Source: Symploca sp. SIO1C2 (GTDB lineage Bacteria; Cyanobacteriota; Cyanobacteriia; Cyanobacteriales; Coleofasciculaceae). From it: a stretch of DNA of 64,000 nt. The stretch spans positions 96,985-160,984 of the forward strand of contig JAAHFP010000005.1 of the NCBI GenBank assembly GCA_010672925.1. The letters run 5' to 3'. How positions within the stretch are numbered: position 1 is the stretch's first letter; each line of letters starts with the position of its first letter. A program made the position numbers and the translations under genes. The notes below the pieces were generated by a model. It worked only from the letters and a program-made list of their open reading frames with translations, had not been told where the DNA came from and did no database searches. Shown piece by piece: positions 42-61,586 of the stretch.

Positions 42-647
42 ATGAAAATTGCGATTGATCCTGGACATAATTGCCCACCGGACACTGGAGCTAGTGGGAT
101 TAGACAAGAAGATCAGTTAAATTTAGAAGTTTCGGAAAAAGTAATTAAAAAACTCCGAGATGCTGGTCATCAAGTGATTAATGTTTTGCCTGACTACTGC
201 CGAAGTGTATCTGACAGTTTGTCTAAGCGCGTGAACCTTGCTAACAGGATGGAGGTAGATATTTATGTTAGTCTCCATTTCAATTATTTCAATGGCAGGG
301 CTTCCGGAAGTGAAGTGTTTTTTGGCTCACAAGCTGGTAAAGCAATCGCTCAAAAAGTTCTCACAAAAATAGTCAGCTTAGGTTTCCAGAACCGTGGCGT
401 TAAAAATGGACTACACCTGTACGTAATCCGCGCCACAAGAATGCCAGCTATCTTAATTGAGTGCTGTTTCTGCGATTCTGCTAGAGACATGGGTATTTAT
501 GACGCTGAGAGCATGGCTGATGCAATCGTGTTCGGTTTGATTGGTAAGCAAACTGCTTTAACTGCTAATCTTCTGGAAGCACCAACTCTGATGGAACAAA
601 AGGCTGCTGGGCAACCCCGGCCAAGCCTACAGATTCCAAAAGGTTAG
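42..647 (+). CDS. N-acetylmuramoyl-L-alanine amidase (Amidase_3)
   Basis: This 201-residue protein looks like a zinc-dependent amidase that cuts the bond between muramic acid and the stem peptide of peptidoglycan. The start has a GAGG ribosome site at 33-36. The Amidase_3 fold is read from the DPGH motif (H9), a glutamate near E23, VSLH (H79) and the catalytic-type glutamate in AILIEC (E140), giving the usual His-Glu-His-Glu set. There is no signal peptide, so export or a role as a secreted effector or lysis protein is not shown. It is the only plus-strand gene in the first 9.9 kb. Its last 83 bases overlap the end of the DUF928 gene on the other strand. The C-terminal 30 residues after the catalytic domain look low in conservation. 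Confidence 0.85.
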   Translation: MKIAIDPGHNCPPDTGASGIRQEDQLNLEVSEKVIKKLRDAGHQVINVLPDYCRSVSDSLSKRVNLANRMEVDIYVSLHFNYFNGRASGSEVFFGSQAGKAIAQKVLTKIVSLGFQNRGVKNGLHLYVIRATRMPAILIECCFCDSARDMGIYDAESMADAIVFGLIGKQTALTANLLEAPTLMEQKAAGQPRPSLQIPKG

Positions 648-1455
648 TCCAAGCCTCCTGGAGACTATCATCTTCTGGATTAGCAAAATATAGTTCAGCG
701 AGATTAGCGATCGCATCGTGCCAAATTTCTTGTTCCCTATAAACGATGTACTCTTGAGATTGCACCGCCTCTAACTGATTTTCTAGTTGGGAGTTGCTCA
801 GTTGCCGTTGTATCCAGCCATCTACTACTAAGTCCGGTTCATCGGTTGTATCCGGTTTACAGTCAAGATTTAAGCGCCAACGGTAGTTTGCTTGCGCTTG
901 GAGAGCATACTGCGGTTGGTTAGGAATGGTCACTTGAATAATTCCCGGCTTTTCCGTTAGCTTAACTCCCGTTTTGTAAATAGTTTTACGTTCTTTGCTA
1001 TCCAGGAGTAAAAACTCTATGCTGCTAATATCTTCAGGGGCATAGGGAATATAAAACCAAAAAGTGGGATATTCTGAGAGGGTATAATCACTACCATTGT
1101 TGGCAACTAAAGCTGTTAGAGGCGGTTCCATGGTTTGGCAATTAGCCTCAGGACGTGTTGTTCCTGGCTTAGGATTACCTGTAGGTGTACCGGTATCTGG
1201 TGGTGCTGGAGGTTTAGCCTGTCCGGATAGAAAATGGACTAAAGCCTTGTTTGAGTCGTATAAGGAGGACTTGGGCTGTGAGCTAGAGGTTTTGAAAATC
1301 TGACGGTTTATCAGATGTGGCGTAAGATCTGAGCTTACCCTAATGTCTGTTCCAAGACTAGTCGAATTAGCTCTAAACAGAGAAGGTTGGGTTGAGGGAA
1401 GAAGACCCAACACGATAAAATTGGCAACGTACAAAGCCTCAAATTTTATTTTCAT
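565..1455 (-). CDS. DUF928 family exported protein
   Basis: This 296-residue protein matches the cyanobacterial DUF928 pattern: a Pro/Gly-rich linker (PKPGTTR), an LTALV block, the YPTFWFYIPY signature, a PGI turn, and YRWRLNLDC followed by VDGWIQR. DUF928 proteins are usually exported and have no known activity. The N-terminus has a short hydrophobic stretch (residues about 10-20) consistent with a weak signal sequence. It is the last gene of a minus-strand train and starts 57 bases after the PIN toxin gene. Its 3' end overlaps the amidase gene tail to tail by 83 bases, so the two transcripts would be antisense there. DUF928 genes often sit next to CHAT or CHASE2 genes in cyanobacteria, which agrees with this neighbourhood. 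Confidence 0.8.
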   Translation of the reverse strand: MKIKFEALYVANFIVLGLLPSTQPSLFRANSTSLGTDIRVSSDLTPHLINRQIFKTSSSQPKSSLYDSNKALVHFLSGQAKPPAPPDTGTPTGNPKPGTTRPEANCQTMEPPLTALVANNGSDYTLSEYPTFWFYIPYAPEDISSIEFLLLDSKERKTIYKTGVKLTEKPGIIQVTIPNQPQYALQAQANYRWRLNLDCKPDTTDEPDLVVDGWIQRQLSNSQLENQLEAVQSQEYIVYREQEIWHDAIANLAELYFANPEDDSLQEAWTNLLESVGLAGVAQQPFVPSELVLPED

Positions 1456-1512: not shown

Positions 1513-1959
1513 TCAAATGTTCTGCCATAAGTCTGCTGCAATAAACCTTGATAGATGCCCTACATTTGTTGTTGCAATCACCACATCTGAAACACCTAAC
1601 ATCATAGCCTGAGCGATCAAAATCATATCACTGTCAATAGTTTTATCTCCTGCTGTTGGCTGTCCCTGCTGTCGAGCTTGTGCCCAAAGTTCAGCCGCTT
1701 TACGCATAGAAGCAGTAGTAATTGGTAGATATTCAAGAAGTTGGGATAAACCATCTAATCGAGTAAGACCTTTCTTTTTATTAGCTCGCAATAATTCACG
1801 ACGAACTTCGTAATCTGCGATTTCTGGAATAATTACACGATTTTCTGCTTTGAGATGAGACTGAAGCCATTGATTGCAAGCGACACTTTGGGAAGAAAGC
1901 TTGGGATTAGTAATAAGCCCGATTGGACCTGTATCCAGCAGAATGACCAGATTCACCAT
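1513..1959 (-). CDS. PIN-domain toxin (VapC-like)
   Basis: This 148-residue protein has the layout of a PIN ribonuclease. The first acidic residue is D9 in LLDTGPIG, a central glutamate lies in the ADYEVRREL helix, and a late aspartate lies in SDMILIAQAM. In toxins of this group the acidic cluster binds magnesium or manganese and cuts RNA. Its start ATG overlaps the end of the upstream gene by 7 bases, the usual arrangement for a co-translated toxin-antitoxin pair. The C-terminus (VVIATTNVGHLSRF) matches the usual nucleic-acid-facing end of cyanobacterial PIN proteins. No truncation is seen. Confidence 0.85.
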   Translation of the reverse strand: MVNLVILLDTGPIGLITNPKLSSQSVACNQWLQSHLKAENRVIIPEIADYEVRRELLRANKKKGLTRLDGLSQLLEYLPITTASMRKAAELWAQARQQGQPTAGDKTIDSDMILIAQAMMLGVSDVVIATTNVGHLSRFIAADLWQNI

Positions 1960-2237
1960 GTAATCCCTTTCATCTCCATCGGGAATAACTTGCGCTCACA
2001 ACACCGATCATCGTCTAGCACTTGGAGCAAATACTGACCTGTTTCCTGTTGCTCTTCAACATCCCCATCGTCAATCCATGACTGAAGCAGATTAACGGCT
2101 TCAGTTTGTTTTTGCTTGAGTAAGAGTGAGTTTGTCAAAAGCTGCAAGGTCATAGCTTCAACTGACATTCCTTGCTCCTTAGCTTCTTGTAAAAGGTACT
2201 GCTCCAATTCGGGGGAAAGTTCAAGGCTTAGGGTCAT
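1953..2237 (-). CDS. Antitoxin partner of the PIN toxin
   Basis: This 94-residue protein begins with a short beta strand and helix pattern (MTLSLELSPELEQYLLQEAKEQG) typical of ribbon-helix-helix-like antitoxins that repress their own promoter. The C-terminal half is acidic (DDGDVEEQQE) and likely wraps the toxin. It overlaps the toxin gene by 7 bases and starts 41 bases after the stop of the CHAT-CHASE2 gene, so the pair may ride on that transcript or have its own promoter in the short gap. The family call is from pattern and context rather than from a sure domain match. Confidence 0.7.
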   Translation of the reverse strand: MTLSLELSPELEQYLLQEAKEQGMSVEAMTLQLLTNSLLLKQKQTEAVNLLQSWIDDGDVEEQQETGQYLLQVLDDDRCCERKLFPMEMKGITW

Positions 2238-2278: not shown

Positions 2279-4759
2279 TTAAAATTCATTCTTTATTCTT
2301 AATTCTACTATTCCCCCTGTACCAATTAAGATTAATACCGATGGAACTAGTGGTATCCAACCACCTTTAGTGAAAACAAACCAACAACATCCATATAAAA
2401 TCAAGACAGAGACGCTGAATGCTACCCCTTTAGGTAGAGAAGTTGGAAAGTACCAAACAATTACTCCACCGGCTAATGACCAAAACCAGATCCAGAGACA
2501 ATCTCCCCATTGAGGCCACCACCATAATAGGGGTCGATTATCTTCAACAGCACTAAGAATCTGACTGACAGCATGGGCATGGATATACAACCCTCGCATT
2601 TTGCCATAGGGTGTACCGTGATCATCTTGGATACTGGCAGCTGTAATCCCAATAAGAACAACTCGATCCTTAACCCAAGCAGGGTCAAAATTATCGCTAT
2701 TAGTGAGAACATCTCTAACGGTGACTTGCTGGGCAATCTGGGGGCTGTTGCGGTAATTGAGTAACAGTTGATTTCCTGCTGCATCTAAGTTTTGATATCC
2801 CCCACTATTACTCTGCAATCGCTTGATCACAGTAGAGTTAAACTTCCAATTTTTGTTTGTTGTTTCTACCGGAATTCCCTTAGCATTGAAGTATCGGTAT
2901 GCTAAATACCAACTTAAAGAATAGGGCGTACTACAGTGAGAAGTTTGAGCTATGGCATTGGCAGTACCGGATAAAAGATAGCGACGGATATTGTCATCTT
3001 GATAATTGAGGTCACTATCATTATACAAGTCCACAAAGCCTAGTTGGTTAGCTGGGATTTGTGGAGGGGGAGCAATACTAGTTTTTATGTTTTTACCTAA
3101 GGCGCAGATAGCAATCAAGTCTTTATTCTGCTTCATATGAGCAACTAATGCTTGATAACCCGGTTCTACAGGTTGCTCTCGAACAATGTCCAAGCCAATA
3201 ACTGAGGGTTGATACTGCTGCAATTTGTTCAAAAGCTGAGCTAAAATTTCATCTGGTAACGGATGACCATACCAATCTCCACTGATATCCCTTTCATCTG
3301 CACCTATAATTAAAAGACGTCGGTCTGCTTCTTCCACTGGTCGTCTTCGCATTAAATGGTCAAATGCTTGTAGTTCCCATGTCTGAATTAACCCTAGCGA
3401 TCGCACTGCCATCATCAAGCCTGTGACGATTATACTAGTGAGGAAAACTCTTAACAATTTGGGTCTAAATAAGGGAGAAGATTGAGATTTCCGTGGCTCT
3501 AATCGAATCTCTTCTATTGGTGTTACAGAGGTGAGGGAAATTTCAGTTGGAATTTCCATTCTCCTCGTCTCCGTGTCTCCGCGTCTCCCCGTCTCCGCGT
3601 CTCCGCGTCTCCCCGTCTCCGCCGGTTGGAACAAATCCTCCCAAGTCGGTGGCACTTCCCCTGGATTCTGACAAATCACCGGTAACCAAGTAGCACCAGG
3701 CAACTCTTGAAACTCTTCTAAACTCTCTTGTGCTCTCCGCACTGCTGTATACAAAGGTTGCCCTTGGGAATATTCACTCAAAAACTCCTTTAAAAACGAT
3801 TGTGCTACTTGATCTGGCACTACCTCCTGCATGACAATAACTACTGGTATCTGCAAATTGGCTAGCTTCTGTGCTAATCCCAATCCATCACAGGAGTTAA
3901 AGATGGCGATTTTCAATCCTTGATTAATTGCTGTTTTTAAAGCGTGCTTAAACTGGTCAATAGTTAAACTCTCCTGGTCATTAAGATAAATCCGACCTGT
4001 ATCACTCTCCGTCTGACTATGACCAGCAAAAAAGAAAATATCCCAGCTATTTTTGTCCCGCAGCTTTCTAATTAGTTCTTGGGCTTGAGGTTGCTCTAAA
4101 AATACTGGTTCTGCTCCTTCCAAATCCCGAATTGCCTCCTGATCCGGTTGCAGATTAAGGTTATTACTATCTCCCAAAACTGCCAAAATACGGACTTGGT
4201 TGGGCTGAGGAACTGATGTTGGCTGTACTTCTGGTCGTTCAAATTCGGGCAAACTAAAGCTAACACCCACATCAGGGTACTGCTCCAATAAATCCCAGAC
4301 ATGCCAAGGTAACTTCCAAAGTTGGGTTTCTCCGGCTTGAATTACCAAGCGAATTTCATCATCATGATTAGCAAATTCTCTTCCCAATCTCTCTCTAATC
4401 CTTTGCCAATTTTCATCAGCCGAGGTTTGTAGCCAAGTTTTCATATTGGCTTCCAAGAGTTGAACCCATTGGCGACAAGCATCCACATCTTCTCTTACAG
4501 AACGTTGAACTGTTAGACTGGGAGCAATTTGCCAATCATCGTCATTGCTCCGGTTAGATTGCTCATTGCCAGACATAGTTCTAAGACTACGAAAATGAGT
4601 TTGCCAAGCAATGTAAAAACCTTCAACACCTGGGTTCGGGGATAGCTTGCCTTCAATTTCTGCGGAAGGTAAAGCTTGATGATGCCAAACTTGCAGCGAA
4701 ACATGAAATCCTTGGTTAAAATCACCAAGTCCAATCTTTAAAATTGCTACCCTACCCAT
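2279..4759 (-). CDS. CHAT caspase-like protease with CHASE2 sensor
   Basis: This 826-residue protein joins two known domains. Residues about 185-370 form a CHAT domain, a caspase-related peptidase fold; the probable His-Cys dyad is in FFFAGHSQ (about residue 246) and FNSCDG (about residue 290). After a linker, a transmembrane helix leads to a CHASE2 domain (about residues 460-740: AFDHLMRRRP, IGLDIVRE, DRVVLIGITA), usually an outward-facing sensor, then three closing membrane helices. The inference is that an external or periplasmic signal controls a cytoplasmic protease. The linker is made of an in-frame tandem repeat (ETGRRGD units). It follows a CPBP membrane protein gene by 150 bases and precedes the antitoxin gene by 41. 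Substrate is unknown. Confidence 0.9.
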   Translation of the reverse strand: MGRVAILKIGLGDFNQGFHVSLQVWHHQALPSAEIEGKLSPNPGVEGFYIAWQTHFRSLRTMSGNEQSNRSNDDDWQIAPSLTVQRSVREDVDACRQWVQLLEANMKTWLQTSADENWQRIRERLGREFANHDDEIRLVIQAGETQLWKLPWHVWDLLEQYPDVGVSFSLPEFERPEVQPTSVPQPNQVRILAVLGDSNNLNLQPDQEAIRDLEGAEPVFLEQPQAQELIRKLRDKNSWDIFFFAGHSQTESDTGRIYLNDQESLTIDQFKHALKTAINQGLKIAIFNSCDGLGLAQKLANLQIPVVIVMQEVVPDQVAQSFLKEFLSEYSQGQPLYTAVRRAQESLEEFQELPGATWLPVICQNPGEVPPTWEDLFQPAETGRRGDAETGRRGDTETRRMEIPTEISLTSVTPIEEIRLEPRKSQSSPLFRPKLLRVFLTSIIVTGLMMAVRSLGLIQTWELQAFDHLMRRRPVEEADRRLLIIGADERDISGDWYGHPLPDEILAQLLNKLQQYQPSVIGLDIVREQPVEPGYQALVAHMKQNKDLIAICALGKNIKTSIAPPPQIPANQLGFVDLYNDSDLNYQDDNIRRYLLSGTANAIAQTSHCSTPYSLSWYLAYRYFNAKGIPVETTNKNWKFNSTVIKRLQSNSGGYQNLDAAGNQLLLNYRNSPQIAQQVTVRDVLTNSDNFDPAWVKDRVVLIGITAASIQDDHGTPYGKMRGLYIHAHAVSQILSAVEDNRPLLWWWPQWGDCLWIWFWSLAGGVIVWYFPTSLPKGVAFSVSVLILYGCCWFVFTKGGWIPLVPSVLILIGTGGIVELRIKNEF
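3561..3622. repeat. 9-bp tandem repeat inside the CHAT-CHASE2 gene
   Basis: About seven imperfect copies of tctccgcgt/tctccccgt lie inside the coding region and stay in frame. They encode the ETGRRGDAETGRRGD-type linker between the CHAT and CHASE2 domains. Because the unit is 9 bases, copy number changes would lengthen or shorten the linker without breaking the frame. Confidence 0.85.
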
Positions 4760-4909
4760 GGTTGTTTGTTATAACTATTATTAAATAGTAGCTTTAATGT
4801 AGTTTGGGTATAACGCTGGAGTGAAACCCAAAACTGACCCAATACTGATTGCTTAAGGAGGGGAGAGAAGCTTATTAAGATTTGTTCAGTGGTGGGTTAT
4901 CTAACTTAG

Positions 4910-5527
4910 CTAGATTAAACCAAACAGAATCGAGAGAACACCCAAAATGGAATGACTCAAAGTTACACTAGCTAGATTTCTATATCTATCATAATGAATA
5001 TTCCAAAGAATACCTACTAATAATGTGGCAATAACAATGTAAATATCCACGAAAATTATGTGGACAAAGCTGTATAGAGCTGCGGCAATTATTATTCTTG
5101 TCCACTTTTTCAAGGCTAAAACTTCTAGTAAATGAAAAAGATATCCTCTATAAGCAAATTCTTGAAGTGGGCATGATATCAATACATAAAATAAATAAAA
5201 ATATATAGACAGCTCAGAGTTGTCAATTCTAGGGTCATTTACTAGTGACAATAGTATCATCGGCAACCCAAGAAGTAAGGTGAGAGGAATAATCGCATAT
5301 ATAGATTTTTCAAAATTTTTTCTGGTTATACCTAAGTCAATATTGCTTGTGCCTTGAGATGGTCTGATAAAAAACATTAATAGGCCAATAAAAGTTAGCA
5401 AAATAAATCTAACACTGAATGGAATTAATTTGATAACTATTGCGATTGGAGGAAGTAAGTAGAAGGCAAAGATAAGAAAAATTATTTTTATATCTTGAGT
5501 ATTAATTTGTGAAAGTTTTTTGGTCAT
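4910..5527 (-). CDS. CPBP-family intramembrane protein (ABI/Rce1-like)
   Basis: This 205-residue protein has about six hydrophobic helices and the CPBP layout. The motif normally written EExxxR is QEFAYR here (CPLQEFAYRGYL), so the first glutamate is replaced by glutamine. The later motifs are seen as YSFVH and LSHSILG, with the expected histidines. Family members are membrane-embedded proteases or protease-like proteins; in bacteria some act in bacteriocin self-immunity. The changed first glutamate could reduce catalysis, though this variant may be normal in cyanobacterial members. It lies between two CHAT-protease genes (45 bases from the upstream one), so a role with them is plausible. The region is AT-richer than its neighbours. 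Confidence 0.75.
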   Translation of the reverse strand: MTKKLSQINTQDIKIIFLIFAFYLLPPIAIVIKLIPFSVRFILLTFIGLLMFFIRPSQGTSNIDLGITRKNFEKSIYAIIPLTLLLGLPMILLSLVNDPRIDNSELSIYFYLFYVLISCPLQEFAYRGYLFHLLEVLALKKWTRIIIAAALYSFVHIIFVDIYIVIATLLVGILWNIHYDRYRNLASVTLSHSILGVLSILFGLI

Positions 5528-5572
5528 TTGAGAAGCTTAAAATTATATAATCAATCTGCTTAGATGAAGGGG

Positions 5573-7762
5573 CTATACCCCTACATTTTTAGAGAAAATA
5601 TCCGAATAAATTAGATAGATAATGACTAAATTAAGAATCGGCCACAGTATCCATGTTGATGGGTTGCTGTTCAGGCCAAATGCAATATTAACCAAGTTAG
5701 TATTAACTATTCCAATTACAAGAAATCCCAAGATAAGTACAAGAGAAATAAGTCCGGCAAAGAAGCTAGCTTCAAACCTCCAGGATCTATAAATGCTGAC
5801 TGCCAGTAAACTGAGGAGAACCGGGTAGGCTATGATATCTAGACTACTCACTGGACTGTTGTTCCCAAAGAGGAGATTTTTGGTGACAAGATTATAATGA
5901 ACTCGTATGGGAAACCAGAAAAAAAGAATTAGTTGTGTTGCAATTACATACCGCAGATATTTAGCACTATTATAAACATATTTTGATTGAATTTCACTCC
6001 AGAAAATGCCAGTAGCGATGATAACAGCAATGATATTCAGGAATGTTAAAGCGTAAAATTTTCGACTCTCGGAAAAAGCGCCCTTTCCATGCCATGTTGA
6101 GTATGAAAGTCCAAGTTTCATGAATTCGTAATAGCTGTTTTTTTCATCCTGACTGAGAGACATGTCTACTGTCTGAATTGTCCTAAAATTCTCTAGTGCT
6201 CTCTCTAGATCAGATTTACGAATAATGATTTCACCTTTATCCTCGTCAATCAAATCAGAAGTATCGATAATTTGAGTAGGAGTGTCAGAAATTGCCTCAA
6301 TCCGGTCTTTATTTAAGAAAACGACTGATACTGCATCTTCCTTTAATTCAAAAAGCATCATATCATCAGAAGTTAACTCAACACACAGCAATATAATTGA
6401 CACCCCGAAGGCTACAGCTGCCTGACTCCAGAGCTTAGGTTTACTTCTGATTTGGCACCATGCTTTATATAAAGTTAAGTAAGCTCCCCAAAGAAAAATC
6501 CAAGGATATAAAATTACATGAGGATATAGCTGAGCATAGTAAATAAACTTAGATCTTGAACTTGTCTGAATTCCATCGAATTCAAGGTACAAACTGAGAA
6601 ATAAGCTTATCAAAGATACCAAGGTTATTACTGATAACGGTAGCAATAACTTCCATGAATGAGGAGACTCAACAATCAAATCATTCCACTGTGGTAAGCT
6701 GACTGCCGGATTACGGACGATTGTAGGTAACCAACTGGCACCAGGAAATTCATCTTGAACATCCCATTTGCTCTTCAGGTATTCTCTCCCTCGCCGGACT
6801 GATTCAAAAAGAGAGCTATTGTACGAGAATTCTTTAAGGAATTTCTCCAGAAAGTCTTTGGCAACTTCATCCGGTACTGGTTCTCGCATGACTATACTCT
6901 GAGGCAGATTGAGTTCTGCCAATTGATTCGCTAGCCCTAGTCCATCACAGGAATTAAAAATAGCAATCTGTAAACCATTCTTAATCGCGATAGATAATTC
7001 TGCTTTTAGTTGATCAATTCCTAGGGGACTTTCTATATGATTGAGGACAACAGAGCCAATCGTGCCGTTTTTCAAGCTCTGGCTATGTCCTGCGAAAAAA
7101 AAGATATGCCATCCTTCAATCGATCGTAAAGCATCTCTGAGGTCTTTGGCTGTAGGCTGCTTGAGAGTTTGGATATATGCCCCGCGTGCCTTTGTCTGCT
7201 CCAGTTGCTGGTAGTCAAAATCAATATCGATTTGTGGATTTATTCCGCCACAGCTTCCCAGTACAGCTAGTATCCTAACTTGTTTTTTTGGCTGAAGATT
7301 GCCTCGGCGCTGGAACTCTCTTGCTAAGCTTATGGACGTTTCTGCGTAGCGATGATTTTCTCGAAAGACTTCATTCCAGGGTAATAACCGCAGTTTCTTG
7401 TCCAATGTTTGGATGTTAATCTGAACTTCCTCATTACTGGACACATATTGATCTATAAAATTCTGTAGGCGTCTCCAGCCATCCTGAGATTGAAGCCAGA
7501 TTCTGAAACTCTCTCTTACTTCCTCGGCAGAGTCTGAACAGCTACTATAGGAGACCTTACCTGGCTTGATCCCTCTATAAGCTCCAACTAATCCTGAGAA
7601 GGAACCTTGCCAATTCTCGATTGCTTGACCAAGAGCTTCAGGGATCTGCGTCAGTGAATCAGCTACTTGTAAGGGGTTACCATGCTCATCAAAGATCAAC
7701 AGATCAGCATCAAGCTGATTTGCAATACCTGATTGTCTTAGAATCAATTCGACTCTAGCCAT
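5573..7762 (-). CDS. CHAT caspase-like protein with multi-pass membrane tail
   Basis: This 729-residue protein has an N-terminal region of about 150 residues like that of other cyanobacterial CHAT proteins, then a CHAT peptidase domain with FFFAGHSQ (His about 226) and FNSCDGLGLA (Cys about 272), closely resembling the CHAT part of the gene at 2279-4759. After about residue 370 the tail has eight likely membrane helices, in two sets separated by a soluble loop of about 110 residues. No known sensor domain is recognised in the tail. The gene follows DUF1822 by 97 bases and is followed by the CPBP gene after 45, so it is probably co-transcribed with both. The role is inferred to be a membrane-tethered protease responding to a membrane or external cue. 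Confidence 0.85.
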   Translation of the reverse strand: MARVELILRQSGIANQLDADLLIFDEHGNPLQVADSLTQIPEALGQAIENWQGSFSGLVGAYRGIKPGKVSYSSCSDSAEEVRESFRIWLQSQDGWRRLQNFIDQYVSSNEEVQINIQTLDKKLRLLPWNEVFRENHRYAETSISLAREFQRRGNLQPKKQVRILAVLGSCGGINPQIDIDFDYQQLEQTKARGAYIQTLKQPTAKDLRDALRSIEGWHIFFFAGHSQSLKNGTIGSVVLNHIESPLGIDQLKAELSIAIKNGLQIAIFNSCDGLGLANQLAELNLPQSIVMREPVPDEVAKDFLEKFLKEFSYNSSLFESVRRGREYLKSKWDVQDEFPGASWLPTIVRNPAVSLPQWNDLIVESPHSWKLLLPLSVITLVSLISLFLSLYLEFDGIQTSSRSKFIYYAQLYPHVILYPWIFLWGAYLTLYKAWCQIRSKPKLWSQAAVAFGVSIILLCVELTSDDMMLFELKEDAVSVVFLNKDRIEAISDTPTQIIDTSDLIDEDKGEIIIRKSDLERALENFRTIQTVDMSLSQDEKNSYYEFMKLGLSYSTWHGKGAFSESRKFYALTFLNIIAVIIATGIFWSEIQSKYVYNSAKYLRYVIATQLILFFWFPIRVHYNLVTKNLLFGNNSPVSSLDIIAYPVLLSLLAVSIYRSWRFEASFFAGLISLVLILGFLVIGIVNTNLVNIAFGLNSNPSTWILWPILNLVIIYLIYSDIFSKNVGV

Positions 7763-7859
7763 CGATATAGATATTTAGTGTACCAGAAGTTTGGCAATGC
7801 TATGGGAGTCGGATTAGAGAGACACTGTCAAATTTGAATAATTTAGGTATTCAGCCCCC

Positions 7860-8804
7860 CTAGCTGATAAATTTTTCCGTAACTTTGAGATTTTCTATGA
7901 TAAATCTAACACTGAACAATTCTTCAGTATCGATTTGAAAATTCAACCCCCTGAAATTATCTGCACTGCCCGCCTGAGTTTCCATGATAACACTCTCAGA
8001 ATCATCGAGCAATTGCATTAAAAGCCCCTGGGGCAGGATATTGCCATCAGCAGAGTAAATTTTCAACAGGATATCCAATTCTGTCTCAGTAGCTTGTGTA
8101 ATTTGTACAAGTAGAGCTACCTTGTGGTTTCCTATATCCAGCAGCTTAATCCTCTTCTTGCACAGTTGTGACTCAGGTTCTTGTGTTGTGGCTGCACCAC
8201 GATAGCTAGCAGCTAGCAACAATTCTGGAGCCTGCCAAAATTCATCGAACTCGTCTCTAAACCATTGCCCAAGCCTAACAAAATTAGTCTCAACCAACTC
8301 CACTGACCAAGGGGTTTGCTCAGTCTCTGCAATATCATCAACGATGACATCAATCAAACCTTCTAGAGAGGGGATCTGTTGGATAGATAGCCTTCCCTCC
8401 GATGCTGTCTTACTAAACCCCAGCAGCTTAGCCTCATAATTCTCTTCATCAATTTCAACAACAATGTAGCCAATCCGATCCTCCAGGGTTTCCGGTGGCA
8501 AATGGCAGATCTCCTCGCCTTGCAATACTGGGCGACATTCCAGTTTGCCCTTCTCCTGTACTGCCAAATCAGCAACATCCATAAGCGTTCGCATGGCAGT
8601 ATTCCAACTGTCACTTGCCGCCAGTTCTGTCTCAACTCCAATGCACTCACAGTAAAACTGTACTGCTTGCACAGCTAATGTGTTCAAATAGACTTGTCTC
8701 GCTTTATGAGAAGCTTTTTGTTGACAACGAAATTCTTCAGCTTGACGAATAAGTTTGGTAGTCAAACTCACTTTGAAAGTTAAAGGTTCTGTCAGAAATG
8801 ACAT
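7860..8804 (-). CDS. DUF1822 family protein
   Basis: The protein has 314 residues if it starts at the second methionine, which has an AGAGGA ribosome site 5 bases before it; an earlier ATG at 8819 lacks one. The pattern (EPLTFKVSLT, VYLNTLAVQAVQFY, ASDSWNTAMRTLMDVADL, LECRPVLQGE) is that of DUF1822, a cyanobacterial family without known activity. The C-terminal 100 residues form a beta-rich module ending in VTEKFIS, shared with the DUF1822 gene at 11929-13482, which ends in VTEDFIA. It lies 50 bases after a sigma-like gene and before a CHAT protease gene. By analogy it may be a partner, anchor or inhibitor of the sigma-like factor, but nothing in the sequence proves it. Confidence 0.85.
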   Translation of the reverse strand: MSFLTEPLTFKVSLTTKLIRQAEEFRCQQKASHKARQVYLNTLAVQAVQFYCECIGVETELAASDSWNTAMRTLMDVADLAVQEKGKLECRPVLQGEEICHLPPETLEDRIGYIVVEIDEENYEAKLLGFSKTASEGRLSIQQIPSLEGLIDVIVDDIAETEQTPWSVELVETNFVRLGQWFRDEFDEFWQAPELLLAASYRGAATTQEPESQLCKKRIKLLDIGNHKVALLVQITQATETELDILLKIYSADGNILPQGLLMQLLDDSESVIMETQAGSADNFRGLNFQIDTEELFSVRFIIENLKVTEKFIS

Positions 8805-8854
8805 GTTTTCCTCTACCATTTGATAAAGATAAGTAATTATTTAAATATTTGTAA

Positions 8855-9493
8855 TCATTCTCTTAAATATTTTTCAAACAGAAGCTTGAATTTTTGACAA
8901 CTCCTCCGAAAGAAGCTATATAAGGTTTGTTCTGGAATATTCCACATATCTGCAAGTTCTCTTTTACCATAACCATCAAGCAGATGTAAAGCGATTGCCT
9001 GAAAATTTACTTCTGGTCGTCCTCTTATAAATTGATTTTTGAAAACATCCTCAAGATCTTCTTCTATCAGCTGTCGCACAGATTCAGATAAGAAAGGTGT
9101 TTGTTCAGAAGACAATGTATCTAAATCTCTATTAAAATTGCTGCTGCTAGTGCCGGATTGACTTGATAATGAGACTTCTAGTTGCCGTTCTTGTTTAAAT
9201 TTGTTAATAGCGCCCTTAAATTCAAGATTCAATTTTTGATTAATCCAGGTCATCATCTTTGCTCTCGTGGGGTCATATCTATCGATACTTCTAAAAACAT
9301 ATGTACGGACTGCCTGAATAGCTTCATGATAAACCTCTGGAGGATAGTCGTATTTTCCTTGACAATAGAGCTTCCCTGAATTCTCAATAGCTGCAAGTAG
9401 ACGTGTTACAGCAATAATCCTGCGCTTGCTTCCCGGAGAATGCTGTTTGGCTAACTTAGATAGCTGCTTGAGATAGCTGTCCAATTCATCCAT
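8855..9493 (-). CDS. Sigma-70-like regulator, ECF-like
   Basis: This 212-residue protein has a region-2-like helix bundle (about residues 50-110, with YVFRSIDRYDPTRAKMMTWINQKL) and a region-4-like helix-turn-helix (about 165-205, with YGKRELADMWNIPEQTLYSFFRRSC). The start has an AAAGGA ribosome site. Region 2 lacks a clear canonical core-binding block, so it is better called sigma-like than a proven sigma factor. It is the first gene of the train that continues with DUF1822 (gap 50 to its chosen start) and the CHAT protease, so it probably controls that train or a regulon with it. A large relative is encoded at 13517-15037, also directly before a DUF1822 gene. Confidence 0.75.
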   Translation of the reverse strand: MDELDSYLKQLSKLAKQHSPGSKRRIIAVTRLLAAIENSGKLYCQGKYDYPPEVYHEAIQAVRTYVFRSIDRYDPTRAKMMTWINQKLNLEFKGAINKFKQERQLEVSLSSQSGTSSSNFNRDLDTLSSEQTPFLSESVRQLIEEDLEDVFKNQFIRGRPEVNFQAIALHLLDGYGKRELADMWNIPEQTLYSFFRRSCQKFKLLFEKYLRE

Positions 9494-11928: not shown

Positions 11929-13482
11929 TCAAGCAATAAAATCTTCAGTAACACTAACATCATCAAACCCCACTCGAACCCGGAAACGAGTTCCTGGTGG
12001 AGGACTAAAACGCCCCTCCAGAGATTTATCCTTGCCTTGCTCTTGCTCATCACTTCTGGCTTCTACTTCTAGTTTAGTTTCTCCTGAAGCTGAAAGCACG
12101 CTCAGTTTCAGATGAGGGGGCAGCTTGAGGAGTTTACCTGCTGGTTGCACTTGCACAAAAACACTGATTCTGTCATCAACTCTGGGCATAATTGCCACAA
12201 TCAGGGCAATTGTGTGACTTCCCAATTGCATACCCAGATCAATCAACCTCGCCTTTCTTACCCCAGCTTCTGGATTACCTGGATCTATTTTTCCTAAACT
12301 TAAAGCCGCTTGCCAACGAGTTTCCTCCTCTTGAGCATTGTGTAACAATTCCTGCAAAGCCGCGATCGCTTCTGGATGATGAGTACCAATTTCCCCTAAG
12401 ACACCCGCTGCTTGATAACGGATCTTCTCCGGCTGATCCGGTTGCAGCAGACGAATTACTGGGGTTATGGTGTCTAGAGTCACCGTTTCAGGAGAGGCTG
12501 TGGAACCTCGCACTGGACTTAACTCCAGGGGCACTAGTAGCGCTTCCGCTGCCTGCCAACCCGACTCAACTATCCCCTCTAACCACTGTCTCAAGCTTAC
12601 TGGTGCCTGACTGGAGGCAGTAATATCAAGTTCGGATAAACAGTTATCATTCTCTTCTTTCTTCCCTTCTGCCTTCTGCCCTCTGCCCTCTGCCTTATTA
12701 CCACCAAAGTTTAAGTATTCTACCGAACTTGATATAACCCTAGATTGTCTTAACCGCTGGTCATATAGTTGTTGTCTCCATTGCTCATTTGCTAGTAAAG
12801 CTGCCCAATGTTCAAAAGGAATTGTCAAGCGTGGGGAATAAGGAGTTGGTTTACTCAGCTGTGTCAATAATTGTTTGGCTTGCTGGGTTTCTAAAGTTGG
12901 TAGAGGTGCGACTGTTGGCTTTTCCTCTGGGCAAACTTCTCTGCCTACCCACAGGATATTGAGACTTTCAATCAAATCTTGACTATCTAGGGAGTAAGTG
13001 TGCTGGAGTGTATCCTTTTTACCTTGCTTGAGTTTGTCATAGGTAGTAAAACCCCAAACTCGCATCCAATCTTCATCCCCTTCCAAATTAACCTGCACTG
13101 CTAGGTAATAGTCAGCTGCCCAATTAGGAATATCCAGCCATTCAGCAGGCACACAGAGTTGTTCTAAATCAGTAGTTTCACTAGGAATTAAAACCAGTCG
13201 GGTATCACCTAACTCAAGGGCACAACCATTGACCATTTCCCAGATACCAAGATTAGCCTGATTATTAGGCCAAATTGAGAGTTTTTCTTCCTGAAAATCC
13301 GGTTCTTCTTGCAGCCAGTCAACAAAACTATGCAAACATAGATAGTTGACATAAGCTCTCCAACGGGCAACATCATTAGAATAGTTGTGCACCTGCTGCC
13401 ATGCTTGAGCCTGAGCCTGGGGTGATAACTCCAAGCATAACTGTTTCGGATAAGTATTAATTAATTTATCTAAGCTGAACAT
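11929..13482 (-). CDS. DUF1822-HEAT repeat protein
   Basis: This 517-residue protein starts with a DUF1822 region (about 1-245; CLHSFVDWLQ, VLIPSETTDLEQLCVPAEW, ADYYLAVQVN). Residues about 340-405 hold two HEAT-type helical repeats (RYQAAGVLGEIG, RWQAALSLGKI), usually protein-binding surfaces. The last 100 residues are a beta-rich module ending in VTEDFIA, shared with the DUF1822 protein at 7860-8804. Residues about 250-287 (NKAEGRGQKAEGKKEEN) come from a small element inserted in frame and are not part of the family. The gene follows a sigma-like gene by 34 bases, as DUF1822 does in the first module. No activity is known. Confidence 0.85.
   Translation of the reverse strand: MFSLDKLINTYPKQLCLELSPQAQAQAWQQVHNYSNDVARWRAYVNYLCLHSFVDWLQEEPDFQEEKLSIWPNNQANLGIWEMVNGCALELGDTRLVLIPSETTDLEQLCVPAEWLDIPNWAADYYLAVQVNLEGDEDWMRVWGFTTYDKLKQGKKDTLQHTYSLDSQDLIESLNILWVGREVCPEEKPTVAPLPTLETQQAKQLLTQLSKPTPYSPRLTIPFEHWAALLANEQWRQQLYDQRLRQSRVISSSVEYLNFGGNKAEGRGQKAEGKKEENDNCLSELDITASSQAPVSLRQWLEGIVESGWQAAEALLVPLELSPVRGSTASPETVTLDTITPVIRLLQPDQPEKIRYQAAGVLGEIGTHHPEAIAALQELLHNAQEEETRWQAALSLGKIDPGNPEAGVRKARLIDLGMQLGSHTIALIVAIMPRVDDRISVFVQVQPAGKLLKLPPHLKLSVLSASGETKLEVEARSDEQEQGKDKSLEGRFSPPPGTRFRVRVGFDDVSVTEDFIA
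12623..12735. mobile_element. 113-bp MITE-like insertion inside the DUF1822-HEAT gene
   Basis: The 13-base ends atatcaagttcgg (12623) and ccgaacttgatat (12723) are perfect inverted copies. The middle holds ccttctgcc/ccctctgcc heptamer-type repeats that recur elsewhere in the window between genes. The reading frame of the host gene stays open across it. Confidence 0.8.
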
Positions 13483-13516
13483 TACCCAATTTCCTCCCCT
13501 ACACTCAATTGTTTGA

Positions 13517-15037
13517 TTAATTATTCGTTAGCCATCTGGCGATTACCCGAACTACTTTTTTTTGTTCTCGTTTTTGATCTAGAGAGATATTGATTGTGGT
13601 GCTTACCCATTTAATTAGGTAAGCTAGTAACTGATTTTCTGCCTCCGCTACTTGTTGTTTCACCTGATTTTGCTGAATCTTCAGCTGTCTAGCTATGTGA
13701 GCTGTATCCTTTATTTGGTGGAAATGCCACATTCGCAGGATTGCACTACTCTGAGGAGTGAGATGTTTTTCTAAACCAGTCCGCATCACCGATTCTATTT
13801 GAGCTTGATAATGTTGTTTCAACCATTTGTCGATGTATTCGTCTACATTTTGCAGCTCCATCAAATCCAGGGTTAAACTTTCTTTGACCCAAACTGCTGC
13901 GGACTTGAGCAGTTTTCTGTGCAATCTGGTACAGCGGCGATTAATTGTCGCCTGATTGAGACCAAGTTGCTGAGCAATACTGGGTTCGCTCAGTTCTAGT
14001 CCATAGCGGAGGATCAGCATTTTGGAGTTTTCCTGGTCTTGAGTAAATGTTTTTAATTCATTGAGTAGAACTTGATTAATTCCCTCAACATAGTCTTGCA
14101 TTTTTTTTGTAGATATTTCTTCTTCGATGGCCAACCAAGGCTCGGAGCTTAAGCCTTCATCCCAACGGTTGGACTCCTGAAAATAGGTTTCGATATTGTC
14201 CCCGAAATATAAAACTTGAGGAGATGACTGTAAGGCTCTGATACAGGTTTGGATTAATCTTTCAAACTGCTCAGTGCTGATAGAGAAGTAATGAAGCTTG
14301 CAGTAATCCCTGGCCTCTTGGTACTTAGCCAGATTTGGTTTTCTCCAGCCTTTAGCAGATTTACTGTAAACTTCAAATAAGCAATTTTTGGCAGTCAGGT
14401 AACGAACAATATTTCCTGGCTTGATGCCCAGAGTTTTGAGTCCTTGTTCTAAGTCCCGTTCACTAGCTTGTTTTAATGAATACCAAGGAGAGTACTTGCC
14501 TTGTCCCGTTTCTCGATTGAAAATATCTCGAATCTTGCTAGCTAGCTCTAATTTAAAATGCTCATCCAAAGAATAGGTTTGACTTTTGTATCTTTGGTAA
14601 ATTAGTGCAATAGCTTTAGGCTCATTAGTTAGGCATTTAGCGATGTGCAGATAATGCTCCCAAGTATTTTGGGGATTTTTGAAATCTCTAAAGGCTTCAA
14701 ATCTTTCTTTTACTGCTTTATAGAGAGGAGCTTCTAAGTAAGCTGCCAAATGCCACTTAGCCATTTCTTGTTGGTATTCTGGTCCGGTTTCATTTTCATA
14801 AGCCTCCAGAAATTCTTGCACTAGATAGGGAGCATTTTCCGCTTGACACATCTGCAAAAACTGGTCATTGTCTTCTTGATACAAGCTGATATGGCGTTTC
14901 AGTGCAGGTTCAGGTCGCCACTTGAAAAAGCGGATATGCCCTTGACCATTGTCAACAGGAATCAGAAAGGTAAAAAATTGCTCGATGAAATTCCGTGGCG
15001 GTATTTTCTGGTACATGACTTGGCTCTCGTCCAACAT
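13517..15037 (-). CDS. Large sigma-like regulator with two HTH regions
   Basis: This 506-residue protein has a long N-terminal part without a recognised domain and two region-4-like helix-turn-helix stretches: about residues 335-385 (LILRYGLELSEPSIAQQLGLNQATINRRC) and about 435-480 (ILRMWHFHQIKDTAHIARQL). The pattern is that of large cyanobacterial sigma-70-like proteins rather than a standard group 1-4 factor. It sits between a YbjN-like gene (gap 18) and DUF1822-HEAT (gap 34) and is probably co-transcribed with both. Start could be at the first ATG or the one seven codons later. Binding targets are unknown; it is listed as a regulator by inference. Confidence 0.7.
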   Translation of the reverse strand: MLDESQVMYQKIPPRNFIEQFFTFLIPVDNGQGHIRFFKWRPEPALKRHISLYQEDNDQFLQMCQAENAPYLVQEFLEAYENETGPEYQQEMAKWHLAAYLEAPLYKAVKERFEAFRDFKNPQNTWEHYLHIAKCLTNEPKAIALIYQRYKSQTYSLDEHFKLELASKIRDIFNRETGQGKYSPWYSLKQASERDLEQGLKTLGIKPGNIVRYLTAKNCLFEVYSKSAKGWRKPNLAKYQEARDYCKLHYFSISTEQFERLIQTCIRALQSSPQVLYFGDNIETYFQESNRWDEGLSSEPWLAIEEEISTKKMQDYVEGINQVLLNELKTFTQDQENSKMLILRYGLELSEPSIAQQLGLNQATINRRCTRLHRKLLKSAAVWVKESLTLDLMELQNVDEYIDKWLKQHYQAQIESVMRTGLEKHLTPQSSAILRMWHFHQIKDTAHIARQLKIQQNQVKQQVAEAENQLLAYLIKWVSTTINISLDQKREQKKVVRVIARWLTNN

Positions 15038-15055
15038 CCCTGAATCACTACCATT

Positions 15056-15616
15056 TTAAATAGATGCTAGGCTTCCGTGACTCTGATGAGTTGTCAGTGC
15101 TGACTCCAATAATTCCAATACCCCCTCTGGGGCAATTTCTTGCAACATTAGCAATATCTTCTCACCTAGTTCTCTTTCCCCTGAATTTAAACTGCTTGCC
15201 ATCACTGCTTTAATCTGGGGCATCAACCCTTGATTTACCATATTAATTAGACTACTCAAGCAATGGTTGAACTGCTTTTCGTTCAATGGGGCAGCTTCCA
15301 GAGGGAATTTAATTGCTGCTCGAACTTCCTCATTAATTAAATCAGATTCCCACTGCAACATCTTGGTATTCCCAGATAAAGCTAGTAGTTTATGGCAAAT
15401 TGACTCTTGATGCTGATGTTTTGGAGCATCACCAAGCAACCGAGGGACATAGAATTGGAGGAATTTGCCATCTTCGTGCAATTGGATGACAATCACAAAT
15501 TGTTCAACATGATTCGCCTCAACACTGGTCAACACTCTAAAATTATCTTCATCTACCATATACTGCCAGCGACGGTTGTCGAGGAACTTGGCAATCTGTC
15601 TCAATGTAGTGGCCAT
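15056..15616 (-). CDS. YbjN-like protein
   Basis: This 186-residue protein resembles the YbjN / type III secretion chaperone-like fold in its first 120 residues (LRQIAKFLDNRRWQYMVDED, QFVIVIQLHEDGKFLQFYVP, INEEVRAAIKFPLEAAPLNEKQF). Such proteins are thought to bind other proteins or act in sensory regulation. It is the first gene of the second sigma-DUF1822 train, 18 bases before the large sigma-like gene. Directly upstream on its own strand is one of the two 19-bp repeat copies that frame the block. The C-terminal 60 residues are helical and unassigned. Confidence 0.55.
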   Translation of the reverse strand: MATTLRQIAKFLDNRRWQYMVDEDNFRVLTSVEANHVEQFVIVIQLHEDGKFLQFYVPRLLGDAPKHQHQESICHKLLALSGNTKMLQWESDLINEEVRAAIKFPLEAAPLNEKQFNHCLSSLINMVNQGLMPQIKAVMASSLNSGERELGEKILLMLQEIAPEGVLELLESALTTHQSHGSLASI

Positions 15617-59824: not shown

Positions 59825-61054
59825 TCAGTTCACAATTTTTGGTTCAGGAATCGGAATAATAAACTTACCTCCTTGTTGTTGATAAGCCTGCTGCTGCTGG
59901 ATAATCTCCTGGGCAAAATTCCAGGCTAAAATCAGAACATAGTCTGGCTGATCTTCGAGTAGTTTCGAGGGGGGGAAAATCGGCAGATGATTGATGCTCA
60001 TATAGCGACCATGTTTAAATTTATTTAAATCGACTACATAGTCAAGGAGCGTCTTATCAACCCCTAAGTAGCTCAACATGGTTGTGGCTTTAGCTGCCGC
60101 ACCGTATCCCACAACTTGCTTGCCTTGCTTCTTCAAGTCCCAAAGAATAGCAAGTAAGGAATCCCTGAACTCCTGGACACGCTTGGCAAAATCATGATAA
60201 TAATCGATGCGATCGACTCCTCGTTCTACTTCTAATTGTAAAAGAGATTTAACGGAATCTTGAACTGCTTCGACGGGCTCGATAAACAGACGCAATGAGC
60301 CGCCATGAATGGCAGTACGCTGGATGTCATTGAGAAACAAACCGTGGCTTCTAAATAACTTGTCCAAAGCCGTCACTGAAAAGTAGCACAGGTGCTGATG
60401 GTAAATGGTGTCAAATTCGCAGTGATCTACTAAATCAACGATATAAGGCGCTTCGATAACTGCTACACCAGTCTCTTTTAAGAGCAAACTAATACCGGCG
60501 ACAAAACCATTCAAGTCTGGCACATGAGCTAAAACATTGTTGGCGAGGAAAACATCTGCCTGTTTTCCTTCTTCTCGCAGTTGCTTGGCTAAGTCTTGGG
60601 TAAAGAAAGTACACTTAGTCGGAATGCCAGCTTTTTGTGCTGCTTCCGCAGGACCGGAAGCAGGATCAATGCCTAGTACAGGAATGCCCACTTCTTGAAA
60701 GTTTTTGAGCATGTACCCATCATTGCTAGCCGCTTCAATCACCAAACTGTTGCTATCAAGTTTCCTTGAGGCAATCAATGCTTTGGCACTGTCGCCAAAA
60801 TGTCTGAGTAGGGAAGGAGAAACGGAAGAAAAGTAGGGATATTCCTGACAAAAGAGGATTTCTGGAGGTACACTTACAGTAATTTGCACTAAAGAGCAAT
60901 TAGGACAGAAAGCTAATTCCAGGAGTGCAGTATATTCGGGTTGTTCTAGTTGATCTAATCTCAGCAGTCCATCAGCTAGGGGAGTGTAACCGAAGGAAAT
61001 GATTAATTCTAGGTCAGAATGGCCGCAAGCACGGCAAGGTGGTAACGAGTCCAT
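59825..61054 (-). CDS. Sugar C-methyltransferase (classic type)
   Basis: This 409-residue protein has [10 protein letters not shown] and CPNCSL cysteine pairs, the SAM part [20 protein letters not shown], the conserved [16 protein letters not shown], the acceptor block [11 protein letters not shown], and a C-terminal [14 protein letters not shown] domain. These match the TylC3/EvaC-type family that adds a methyl carbon to a nucleotide-linked keto-sugar. Unlike the two paralogs nearby, it keeps the HGGS-R motif, so it is the best candidate for true C-methylation, presumably of a CDP-linked sugar. Confidence 0.9.
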
Positions 61055-61061
61055 TGTTTAA

Positions 61062-61433
61062 GTGGAACTGGCATCTTGCCAGTAGTAGGTGTAGACAAGT
61101 AGAACTGGCATCCTGCCAGTAGTAAGTGTTAGATAAGTAGAACTGGCATCTTGCCAGTAGCAAGTGTTAGATAAGTAGAACTGGCATCCTGCCAGTAGCA
61201 AGTGTTAGATAAGTAGAACTGGCATCCTGCCAGTAGCAAGTGTTAGATAAGTAGAACTGGCATCCTGCCAGTAGTAAGTGTTAGATAAGTAGAACTGGCA
61301 TCCTGCCAGTAGTAAGTGTTAGATAAGTAGAACTGGCATCTTGCCAGTAGCAAGTGTTAGATAAGTGGAACTGGCATCCTGCCAGTAGTAGGTGTTAGAT
61401 AAGTGGAACTGGCATCCTGCCAGTAGTAGGTGT
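61062..61433. repeat. Ten-copy 38-bp hairpin repeat array
   Basis: Copies start at 61062, 61099, 61137 and every 38 bases after that to 61403 (the first is 37 bases). Each holds actggca-tcc-tgccagt, a 7-bp stem with a 3-base loop, plus a linker with agtaagtgttagata. Unlike CRISPR, the linker is also repeated, so there are no spacers. The remaining 150 bases to the next gene hold caggttgggt/acccaacctac inverted ends (61492, 61556). Confidence 0.95.
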
Positions 61434-61586
61434 GCTGTGGATTAACAAATTGGTGTAGTAGCACGACACACTTAAAATAGTGGAATAGATGCAGGTTGGG
61501 TCGAAGCAACGAGACCCAACACAGTCCCCTAAGAGAGTTAGGTTTCACTACGTTTCACCCAACCTACATTTTGAGCTACATTACAC

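Follow-up and report, generated by a model that had tools for sequence, protein, structure and literature searches.

This study concerns a 64,000-nucleotide (64 kb) stretch of the genome of the cyanobacterium Symploca sp. SIO1C2 (contig JAAHFP010000005.1, positions 96,985 to 160,984), referred to below as the window, and in particular a train of minus-strand genes within it that begins with a gene for a sigma factor of the extracytoplasmic function (ECF) type and continues with a DUF1822 gene and two genes for caspase-like CHAT proteases. The train is a real, repeated regulatory module that is already on record as a gene neighbourhood. Its features are listed here in train order, with window coordinates and the basis of each assignment.

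8855 to 9493, minus strand: first gene of the train, ECF-type sigma factor of 212 amino acids (family profile, TIGR02937, modelled homologue)
7860 to 8819, minus strand: DUF1822 protein of 319 amino acids, likely anti-sigma factor (PF08852, 181 bits; AlphaFold2 model)
8340 to 8783, minus strand: DUF1822 N-domain, alpha/beta, residues 13-160 (model; profile match to the N-terminal part of family f17, described below)
8163 to 8339, minus strand: DUF1822 linker, residues 161-219, with conserved W186 and W195 (model, alignment)
8199 to 8201, minus strand: codon of Arg207 in the linker, putative cut site (conservation)
7866 to 8162, minus strand: DUF1822 C-domain, immunoglobulin (Ig)-like beta-sandwich, residues 220-318 (model)
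5573 to 7762, minus strand: EACC2-type CHAT protease with C-terminal membrane stretches, His226/Cys272 (PF12770, 39.0 bits; hydropathy)
4910 to 5527, minus strand: CPBP/Rce1-like membrane protein, local passenger (Pfam, 44 bits)
2279 to 4759, minus strand: EACC2-type CHAT protease with a CHASE2 sensor (residues 446-765), His247/Cys290 (PF05226, 224 bits; PF12770, 53.9 bits)
1953 to 2237, minus strand: ribbon-helix-helix (RHH)-like gene, local passenger (weak matches only)
1513 to 1959, minus strand: PIN gene, local passenger, between the CHAT-CHASE2 and DUF928 genes (22.8 bits against a cut-off of 23.6)
565 to 1455, minus strand: DUF928, likely secreted partner of the CHASE2 form (PF06051, 183 bits; neighbour counts)

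An earlier account of this DNA, made without database searches and called here the sequence-only reading, described genes running in one direction with gaps of 150 bases or less. Coordinates and Pfam matches agree, as every gene that it named is present on the minus strand; the gaps from the sigma gene to the PIN gene are, in train order, 35, 97, 45, 150 and 41 bases, followed by a 7-base overlap, and the Pfam scores of DUF1822, CHAT, CHASE2 and CPBP are above cut-off. The eight membrane helices given to the first CHAT protein are less firm; a simple hydropathy scan counts six membrane stretches. The genes of the proposed toxin-antitoxin pair are present, but PIN falls just below its cut-off and the RHH-like gene has weak matches only. 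Neither this pair nor the CPBP gene belongs to a conserved unit: among the open reading frames (ORFs) of 151 loci their sole matches are those in this window, and they are local passengers. The DUF928 gene, absent from that account, does belong to the train. Within the CHAT-CHASE2 gene, the part coding for the linker that joins the CHAT domain to the first membrane stretch contains an 8-base tandem repeat (window 3560-3623).

The sigma-like regulator of the sequence-only reading can now be placed more closely. The window protein has no Pfam match above cut-off, and TIGR02937 (NCBIfam) matches its residues 53-201 with an E value of 1.1e-4, under the cut-off of that model; the profile of its short sigma family matches SigK (4nqw) with an E value of 1.6e-4. 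Because the protein's own sequence scores below curated cut-offs, the call is based on the family profile and a modelled homologue, by which it is assigned to the ECF type, with predicted sigma2 and sigma4 and without sigma3.

Conservation of the sigma-DUF1822 pair

Fifty-nine genomes of the phylum were drawn, 44 of which gave DUF1822 matches. Neighbours were counted for 67 DUF1822 genes in 21 genomes, namely the window's own genome, which holds 12 DUF1822 genes and 83 CHAT matches, and 20 others outside family f17. Two weak matches (G011 and G052, E near 1e-3) that were never fetched, locus L209, which was fetched, and a response-regulator-like protein of 338 amino acids in L021, which had entered through a drifting profile, were omitted. 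Eighty further named loci, dominated by Nostoc orthologues whose sigma gene often lies at a greater distance or was not found, stand outside this count and inside the 40-train co-divergence and DUF928 counts below. A sigma-like gene, called with iterated local profiles, lies directly upstream on the same strand of 53 of the 67 DUF1822 genes, a CHAT gene lies directly downstream of 38, and 30 have both; the conserved adjacency for which the sequence-only reading had proposed a survey is thus found across genomes. By the script's score-ratio rule the downstream gene is of the EACC2-CHAT type in 35 cases, against about 0.7% per gene estimated for a chance CHAT gene on the same strand and no more than 1.5 kb downstream. 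The script counts TPR-CHAT proteins (with tetratricopeptide repeats, TPR) as CHAT in at least three genes, and misses an EACC2-CHAT gene 289 bases downstream of the DUF1822 gene of L082. Six of the 14 DUF1822 genes without a called sigma gene come after proteins of 453-517 amino acids that Pfam does not name, and the alignment profile of these matches the long sigma-like family (hhalign 98.3%, E 2.5e-14). No natural fusion of sigma, DUF1822 and CHAT was found among the ORFs of the 151 loci, a set that excludes the f17 loci fetched later. At one locus (L101, 5024-8658) a Cro/CI-type helix-turn-helix gene stands in place of the sigma gene before DUF1822 and a CHAT-pentapeptide gene.

A DUF1822-like domain is also found in family f17, which belongs to another class of the phylum; 23 f17 genomes, 1.8-2.2 Mb in size, have one match each. 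In the three proteins inspected, of 1019-1250 residues, the DUF1822-like N-domain is accompanied by a long acidic stretch and a single hydrophobic segment, and two of the three carry a TonB_2 C-domain; by our own count of precomputed Pfam assignments, PF08852 and PF13103 are named together for 50 of 120 relatives among the matches listed. An ECF-like sigma gene comes next on the same strand in all 21 f17 loci with DNA beyond the gene, the other two loci running off the contig. Sigma70_r4 is above cut-off in all three of these neighbours checked by Pfam, and the one checked with NCBIfam passes TIGR02937. With 16 and 17 sigma matches counted in two f17 genomes of approximately 2.0 and 1.8 Mb, adjacency in every readable locus is not due to chance. 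CHAT matches were absent from all three f17 genomes searched. Gene order is reversed relative to cyanobacteria, with the DUF1822-like gene first and the sigma gene second, indicating that adjacency, and not one inherited block, is what is kept. The presence of a sigma gene beside a DUF1822-like gene in this family, where the three genomes searched lack CHAT, argues that sigma and DUF1822 form the core of the system and that CHAT is an added input. In L106 and L107, among the f17 loci L106-L110 and L191-L208, a zinc-ribbon protein of more than 900 amino acids follows the sigma gene, perhaps making a three-gene unit; that of L107 has AAA, TPR and double zinc ribbon matches.

FecR and RsgI are membrane anti-sigma factors, and the one-helix layout of f17 resembles membrane anti-sigma factors of the RseA, FecR and RsgI types, with an N-terminal domain, a single hydrophobic segment and, in two of the three proteins checked, a TonB-like C-domain. 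New here is this anti-sigma-like layout, in which a DUF1822-like N-domain, with weak scores, heads a one-helix TonB-like protein directly before an ECF sigma gene. The cyanobacterial train shares with such factors an ECF sigma gene beside a likely inhibitor and, as we propose, protease-coupled envelope sensing. DUF1822 is, however, a different domain, and the cyanobacterial form is soluble by sequence, with the membrane part and the sensor located on the protease.

Also new here is that co-divergence is tighter between sigma and DUF1822 than between CHAT and either of them. In 40 trains with all three genes the distance correlation was 0.76 for sigma and DUF1822, 0.53 for sigma and CHAT and 0.51 for DUF1822 and CHAT; none of 2000 permutations reached any of the three, and the partial correlation of sigma and DUF1822 given CHAT was 0.67. 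In five trains of the window's genome the same pairs gave 0.675 (2 of 120 permutations as high), 0.40 (14 of 120) and 0.57 (19 of 120), respectively. All these values are inflated by common descent and by a group of closely related Nostoc orthologues, so that their order alone is informative. We also modelled the sigma and DUF1822 proteins of locus L182 as one chain, with the stop between them read as glycine. The joined model has a mean predicted local distance difference test (pLDDT) score of 88.2 and a predicted template modelling (pTM) score of 0.63 over 542 residues, a summary score without a contact map, compared with a pTM of 0.56 for DUF1822 alone; we would expect a value below 0.56 if the two did not pack. 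A score of 0.63 over 542 residues would correspond to about 340 residues, near the size of sigma plus the N-domain. The idea that DUF1822 is a partner or inhibitor of the sigma factor, which the sequence-only reading had drawn by analogy, thereby gains independent support from the pairing and membrane layout in f17, where the three genomes searched lack CHAT, from co-divergence and from the joined model.

Pairing and co-divergence cannot tell an inhibitor from an activator, and DUF1822 could instead be a positive cofactor that aids the sigma factor, with CHAT ending the response by destroying it. The two genes lie next to each other, with overlaps in several loci when the first start codon is used for the call, which would also suit a cofactor. 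The one-helix layout beside an ECF sigma gene in f17 resembles known membrane anti-sigma factors, and we regard a positive role as the least probable of the alternatives considered here.

DUF1822 architecture and the CHAT proteases

The AlphaFold2 model of the window's DUF1822 protein (117 sequences, pLDDT 89.5) indicates an alpha/beta N-domain, a linker and an Ig-like C-domain, the two domains being loosely placed as the pTM is only 0.56. The model contains no TPR, a difference from the published label of this family as a TPR protein, and the architecture that it indicates is new here. In long DUF1822 forms, HEAT repeats are located in the linker by alignment. The N-domain, common to the membrane form of f17, is the proposed sigma-binding part. 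Foldseek gave no match at E <=0.001 for the DUF1822 model or for the joined sigma-DUF1822 model, and the structure searches list no Csx30-like or anti-sigma match for the N-domain, although the rows listed cover mainly the C-domain and barely probe the N-domain. Within the linker Arg207 stands out, as the position is Arg in 96% and Lys in 3% (99% Arg/Lys) of the 117 sequences and its neighbours are variable. The matching residue of the joined model, Arg432, falls within a stretch (430-434) with pLDDT below 50.

Turning to the proteases, 119 EACC2-CHAT domains were selected by score, omitting pieces and low scorers such as the split genes of L018 and L086. The His and Cys of the catalytic dyad are kept in all 119 aligned domains, and therefore the proteins are likely active; the N-terminal part is also common to them. 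In L018 (10466-11682) two ORFs with a 4-base overlap encode the N-terminal EACC2 part and the CHAT part separately, representing a split gene or a frameshift. Just one NCBIfam family, HetF, is listed for both train CHAT proteins, by weak matches (E 8e-8 and 1e-4, far below cut-off) to part of the protease domain; HetF too is a CHAT protein of the caspase-like kind.

DUF928 genes accompany the CHASE2 form closely. With the Nostoc-rich list included, DUF928 lies downstream of 81 of 87 EACC2-CHAT genes of the CHASE2 type, compared with 1 of the 16 others; when the count is limited to the window's genome and the phylum draw, the figures are 15 of 17 and 0 of 13. A hydrophobic N-terminal stretch is predicted by hydropathy in 83 of 91 DUF928 proteins and a later membrane stretch in none, from which we consider DUF928 likely to be secreted. 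Of the 22 CHASE2 matches in the window's genome, 12 lie no more than 3 kb from a DUF928 match, and six of these are outside DUF1822 trains (on contigs C35, C57, C112, C146, C165 and C235). DUF928 may therefore be a general partner of CHASE2. This link appears to be new, and the coupling of CHASE2 with DUF928 points to envelope sensing. In L021 (3384-8523) CHASE2 and CHAT are encoded separately, on either side of a response-regulator gene.

These observations bear on a published proposal, in which autoproteolysis of EACC2-CHAT is set off by its C-terminal sensor, DUF1822 serves as an adaptor, and a conflict or cell-death system has the sigma factor among its later outputs. Kaur et al. (2021; PMC8195603), in the part of their article available, propose autopeptidase activation for EACC2-caspases with variable C-termini. 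The C-termini vary in our set too (CHASE2, membrane stretches, pentapeptide repeats, nSTAND1-WD40), and 83 CHAT matches in one genome would fit such a system. However, in f17, where the three genomes searched lack CHAT, the DUF1822-like gene still has a sigma gene next to it, the tight CHASE2-DUF928 link suggests envelope sensing, and PADLOC 2.0.0 defence models matched none of the eight window proteins searched. We accordingly think self-cutting unlikely as the main activity of the train. The same PADLOC result, together with surrounding genes that read as housekeeping and polysaccharide genes, leaves the defence role that the sequence-only reading had entertained without support.

Alternatively, the sigma-DUF1822 pair could be a complete switch with some other input, the CHAT, DUF928, trypsin-like and channel genes being merely transcribed by the sigma factor. 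The genes that follow eight scanned pairs, out of 29 without an adjacent CHAT gene, are diverse and mostly envelope-related, their nine proteins including tandem trypsin-like proteins, a CLC channel, an ion channel, a TPS-secreted protein and DUF4870, as well as a C14 caspase (in L090) and an oxidoreductase, and CHAT co-diverges less with the pair than its members do with each other. That EACC2-CHAT follows DUF1822 far more often than the chance estimate, with the dyad kept throughout, counts against simple regulon membership, which we hold to be improbable. In L075, L077 and L078 sigma-DUF1822 pairs are followed by tandem trypsin-like proteins, two with TPR repeats, and the linker Arg is replaced by Lys. 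Such a replacement of one protease by another was considered as proof of cleavage and rejected, because the trypsin-like proteins bear an apparent export signal near the start and are therefore unlikely to meet cytoplasmic DUF1822.

The window contains a second sigma-DUF1822 pair, at 11929-15037 and without a CHAT gene, that was absent from the sequence-only reading:

13517 to 15037, minus strand: second, long sigma-like protein of 506 amino acids (TIGR02937, E 9.2e-11, 41.6 bits, just under the cut-off of 42.9)
11929 to 13482, minus strand: second DUF1822 protein, with HEAT repeats inserted and no CHAT gene after it (PF08852, 319 bits; HEAT_2, 38.5 bits)

A protein of 186 amino acids without a Pfam match precedes this pair (window 11929-15616); it recurs in L100, and also within a CHAT-like protein of 1348 amino acids. 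The remaining ORFs, read by eye, look like housekeeping and polysaccharide genes (pyrE-, psbA-, era-like and others). A direct-repeat scan (repeats >=23, spacing <=120) of the 64 kb showed head-to-tail short repeats only and no CRISPR array, in agreement with the sequence-only reading, and no RNA-guided part was noticed when the ORFs were read by eye, no Cas model having been run on them. A tandem array with a 38-base unit at window 61054-61471 is not CRISPR-like.

Relation to known systems and proposed mechanism

The association of sigma, DUF1822 and caspase genes has already been published. As far as their text was available, Kaur et al. (eLife 2021; PMC8195603) describe proteins in which EACC2 and caspase domains precede a C-terminus that varies, adjoined by ECF sigma and DUF1822 genes; they propose autopeptidase activation with a sigma factor as one output, and call DUF1822 a TPR protein. 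The window is a member of this group by architecture (N-terminal domain plus CHAT dyad, variable C-terminus, ECF sigma and DUF1822 neighbours), a comparison that did not include the authors' own EACC2 alignment, and the C-termini of the published group likewise include CHASE2 and multi-helix forms. It differs in that the DUF1822 modelled here lacks TPR. DUF928 has no mention in the main text of PMC8195603, and the available part of the article does not raise a CHAT-free membrane form, a two-domain fold or an anti-sigma role.

A functional parallel is type III-E CRISPR (Craspase), in which the CHAT protease Csx29 cuts Csx30, a protein that binds and inhibits CASP-sigma (PMC10028731, from the portion available). 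Both systems combine a CHAT protease and a two-domain protein with an adjacent ECF sigma factor, which is the output, and cutting of the inhibitor was shown for Craspase. In contrast, the window has no CRISPR array, and sensing here would be by CHASE2 or other C-terminal domains; the structure searches list no Csx30-like match for DUF1822, which does not exclude one. By analogy, the train may work like Craspase without CRISPR. The anti-sigma factors RseA (with DegS) and RsiW, named in the same source, are also cut by proteases. A further cyanobacterial parallel comes from Anabaena, where PatU3, a negative regulator, can be cleaved by the HetF protease (PMC12288457); in the part of that article available, PatU3 acts on HetZ, which is not a sigma factor, and DUF1822 is not named. 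Both train CHAT proteins weakly match HetF. In the literature searched, which included few subscription journals or preprints, neither DUF1822 as an anti-sigma factor nor a DUF928-CHASE2 link was found, CHAT together with anti-sigma occurred only in the Craspase work (PMC10028731), and CHASE2, CHAT and ECF were not found together. The anti-sigma reading of DUF1822 therefore appears to be new.

Building on the genes and dyads, the repeated sigma-DUF1822-CHAT order, the CHASE2-DUF928 coupling and the f17 pairing, we propose that DUF1822 is the anti-sigma factor of the train's ECF sigma factor and that the two CHAT proteases cut it, releasing sigma, with CHASE2 and DUF928 providing the signal. 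DUF1822 would hold the sigma factor back through its N-domain; the CHASE2 protease with its likely secreted DUF928 partner would supply an envelope signal; the CHAT proteases, predicted to sit in the membrane, would cut the DUF1822 linker, possibly at Arg207; and the released sigma factor would transcribe envelope genes and perhaps its own train. We give this proposal as a whole a probability of roughly 45%, and cleavage of DUF1822 by CHAT is a prediction, although it is the mechanism that we think most likely.

Several findings weigh against the proposal. Among 35 genes beside an EACC2-CHAT gene, 31 have the linker Arg, as do 23 of the 29 that lack a CHAT neighbour. A cut site conserved only beside CHAT was thus rejected, and Arg207, being kept where no CHAT follows, does not mark a CHAT site; its role may be a different one, or the protease may be encoded elsewhere. 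By the script's count 29 of the 67 pairs have no CHAT neighbour, though at least L021 and L082 have one slightly further on, and CHAT diverges more loosely from the sigma-DUF1822 pair. DUF1822 itself has no match to a known anti-sigma family in Pfam or, by sequence search, to a solved structure, and the joined-chain pTM is weak evidence of packing. The domain scores behind the link to f17 are weak, PF08852 giving 22-44 bits (2 of 23 below the Pfam cut-off); hmmscan gives PF08852 for L106 and not for L107 or L110, and a profile built from the window's genome alone recovers 5 of the 23 proteins (E up to 1). At least two of the 53 sigma neighbours (L020 and L074) have no Pfam sigma match and were called by the iterated profile alone. 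Treating the short sigma-like family of this train and the long one as a single family was abandoned, as the two are not clearly one (hhalign 12.7%). Finally, no shared promoter element was found; one upstream motif, a block conserved in Nostoc orthologues, stands before just 7 of 84 sigma genes, is absent from this train and was rejected as a shared promoter.

A broader and more tentative proposal, to which we give less credence than to the mechanism above, is that DUF1822 is a new and ancient anti-sigma family, older than its proteases. It would be membrane-anchored and TonB-like beside an ECF sigma gene in another class, and soluble in cyanobacteria, where anchor and sensor would have moved to the caspase, as CHASE2-CHAT together with a secreted DUF928. 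A genome could then run as many as a dozen such lines in parallel, each turning an envelope signal into transcription by one linker cut, a CRISPR-free counterpart of Craspase.

To our knowledge, most CHAT and DUF1822 genes have no known job. If the proposed mechanism is true, it gives the widespread DUF1822 family a function and some of the CHAT proteases a substrate, and control of transcription by caspases is not confined to CRISPR. A partnership of DUF928 with CHASE2 would, in addition, offer a way to learn what CHASE2 senses.

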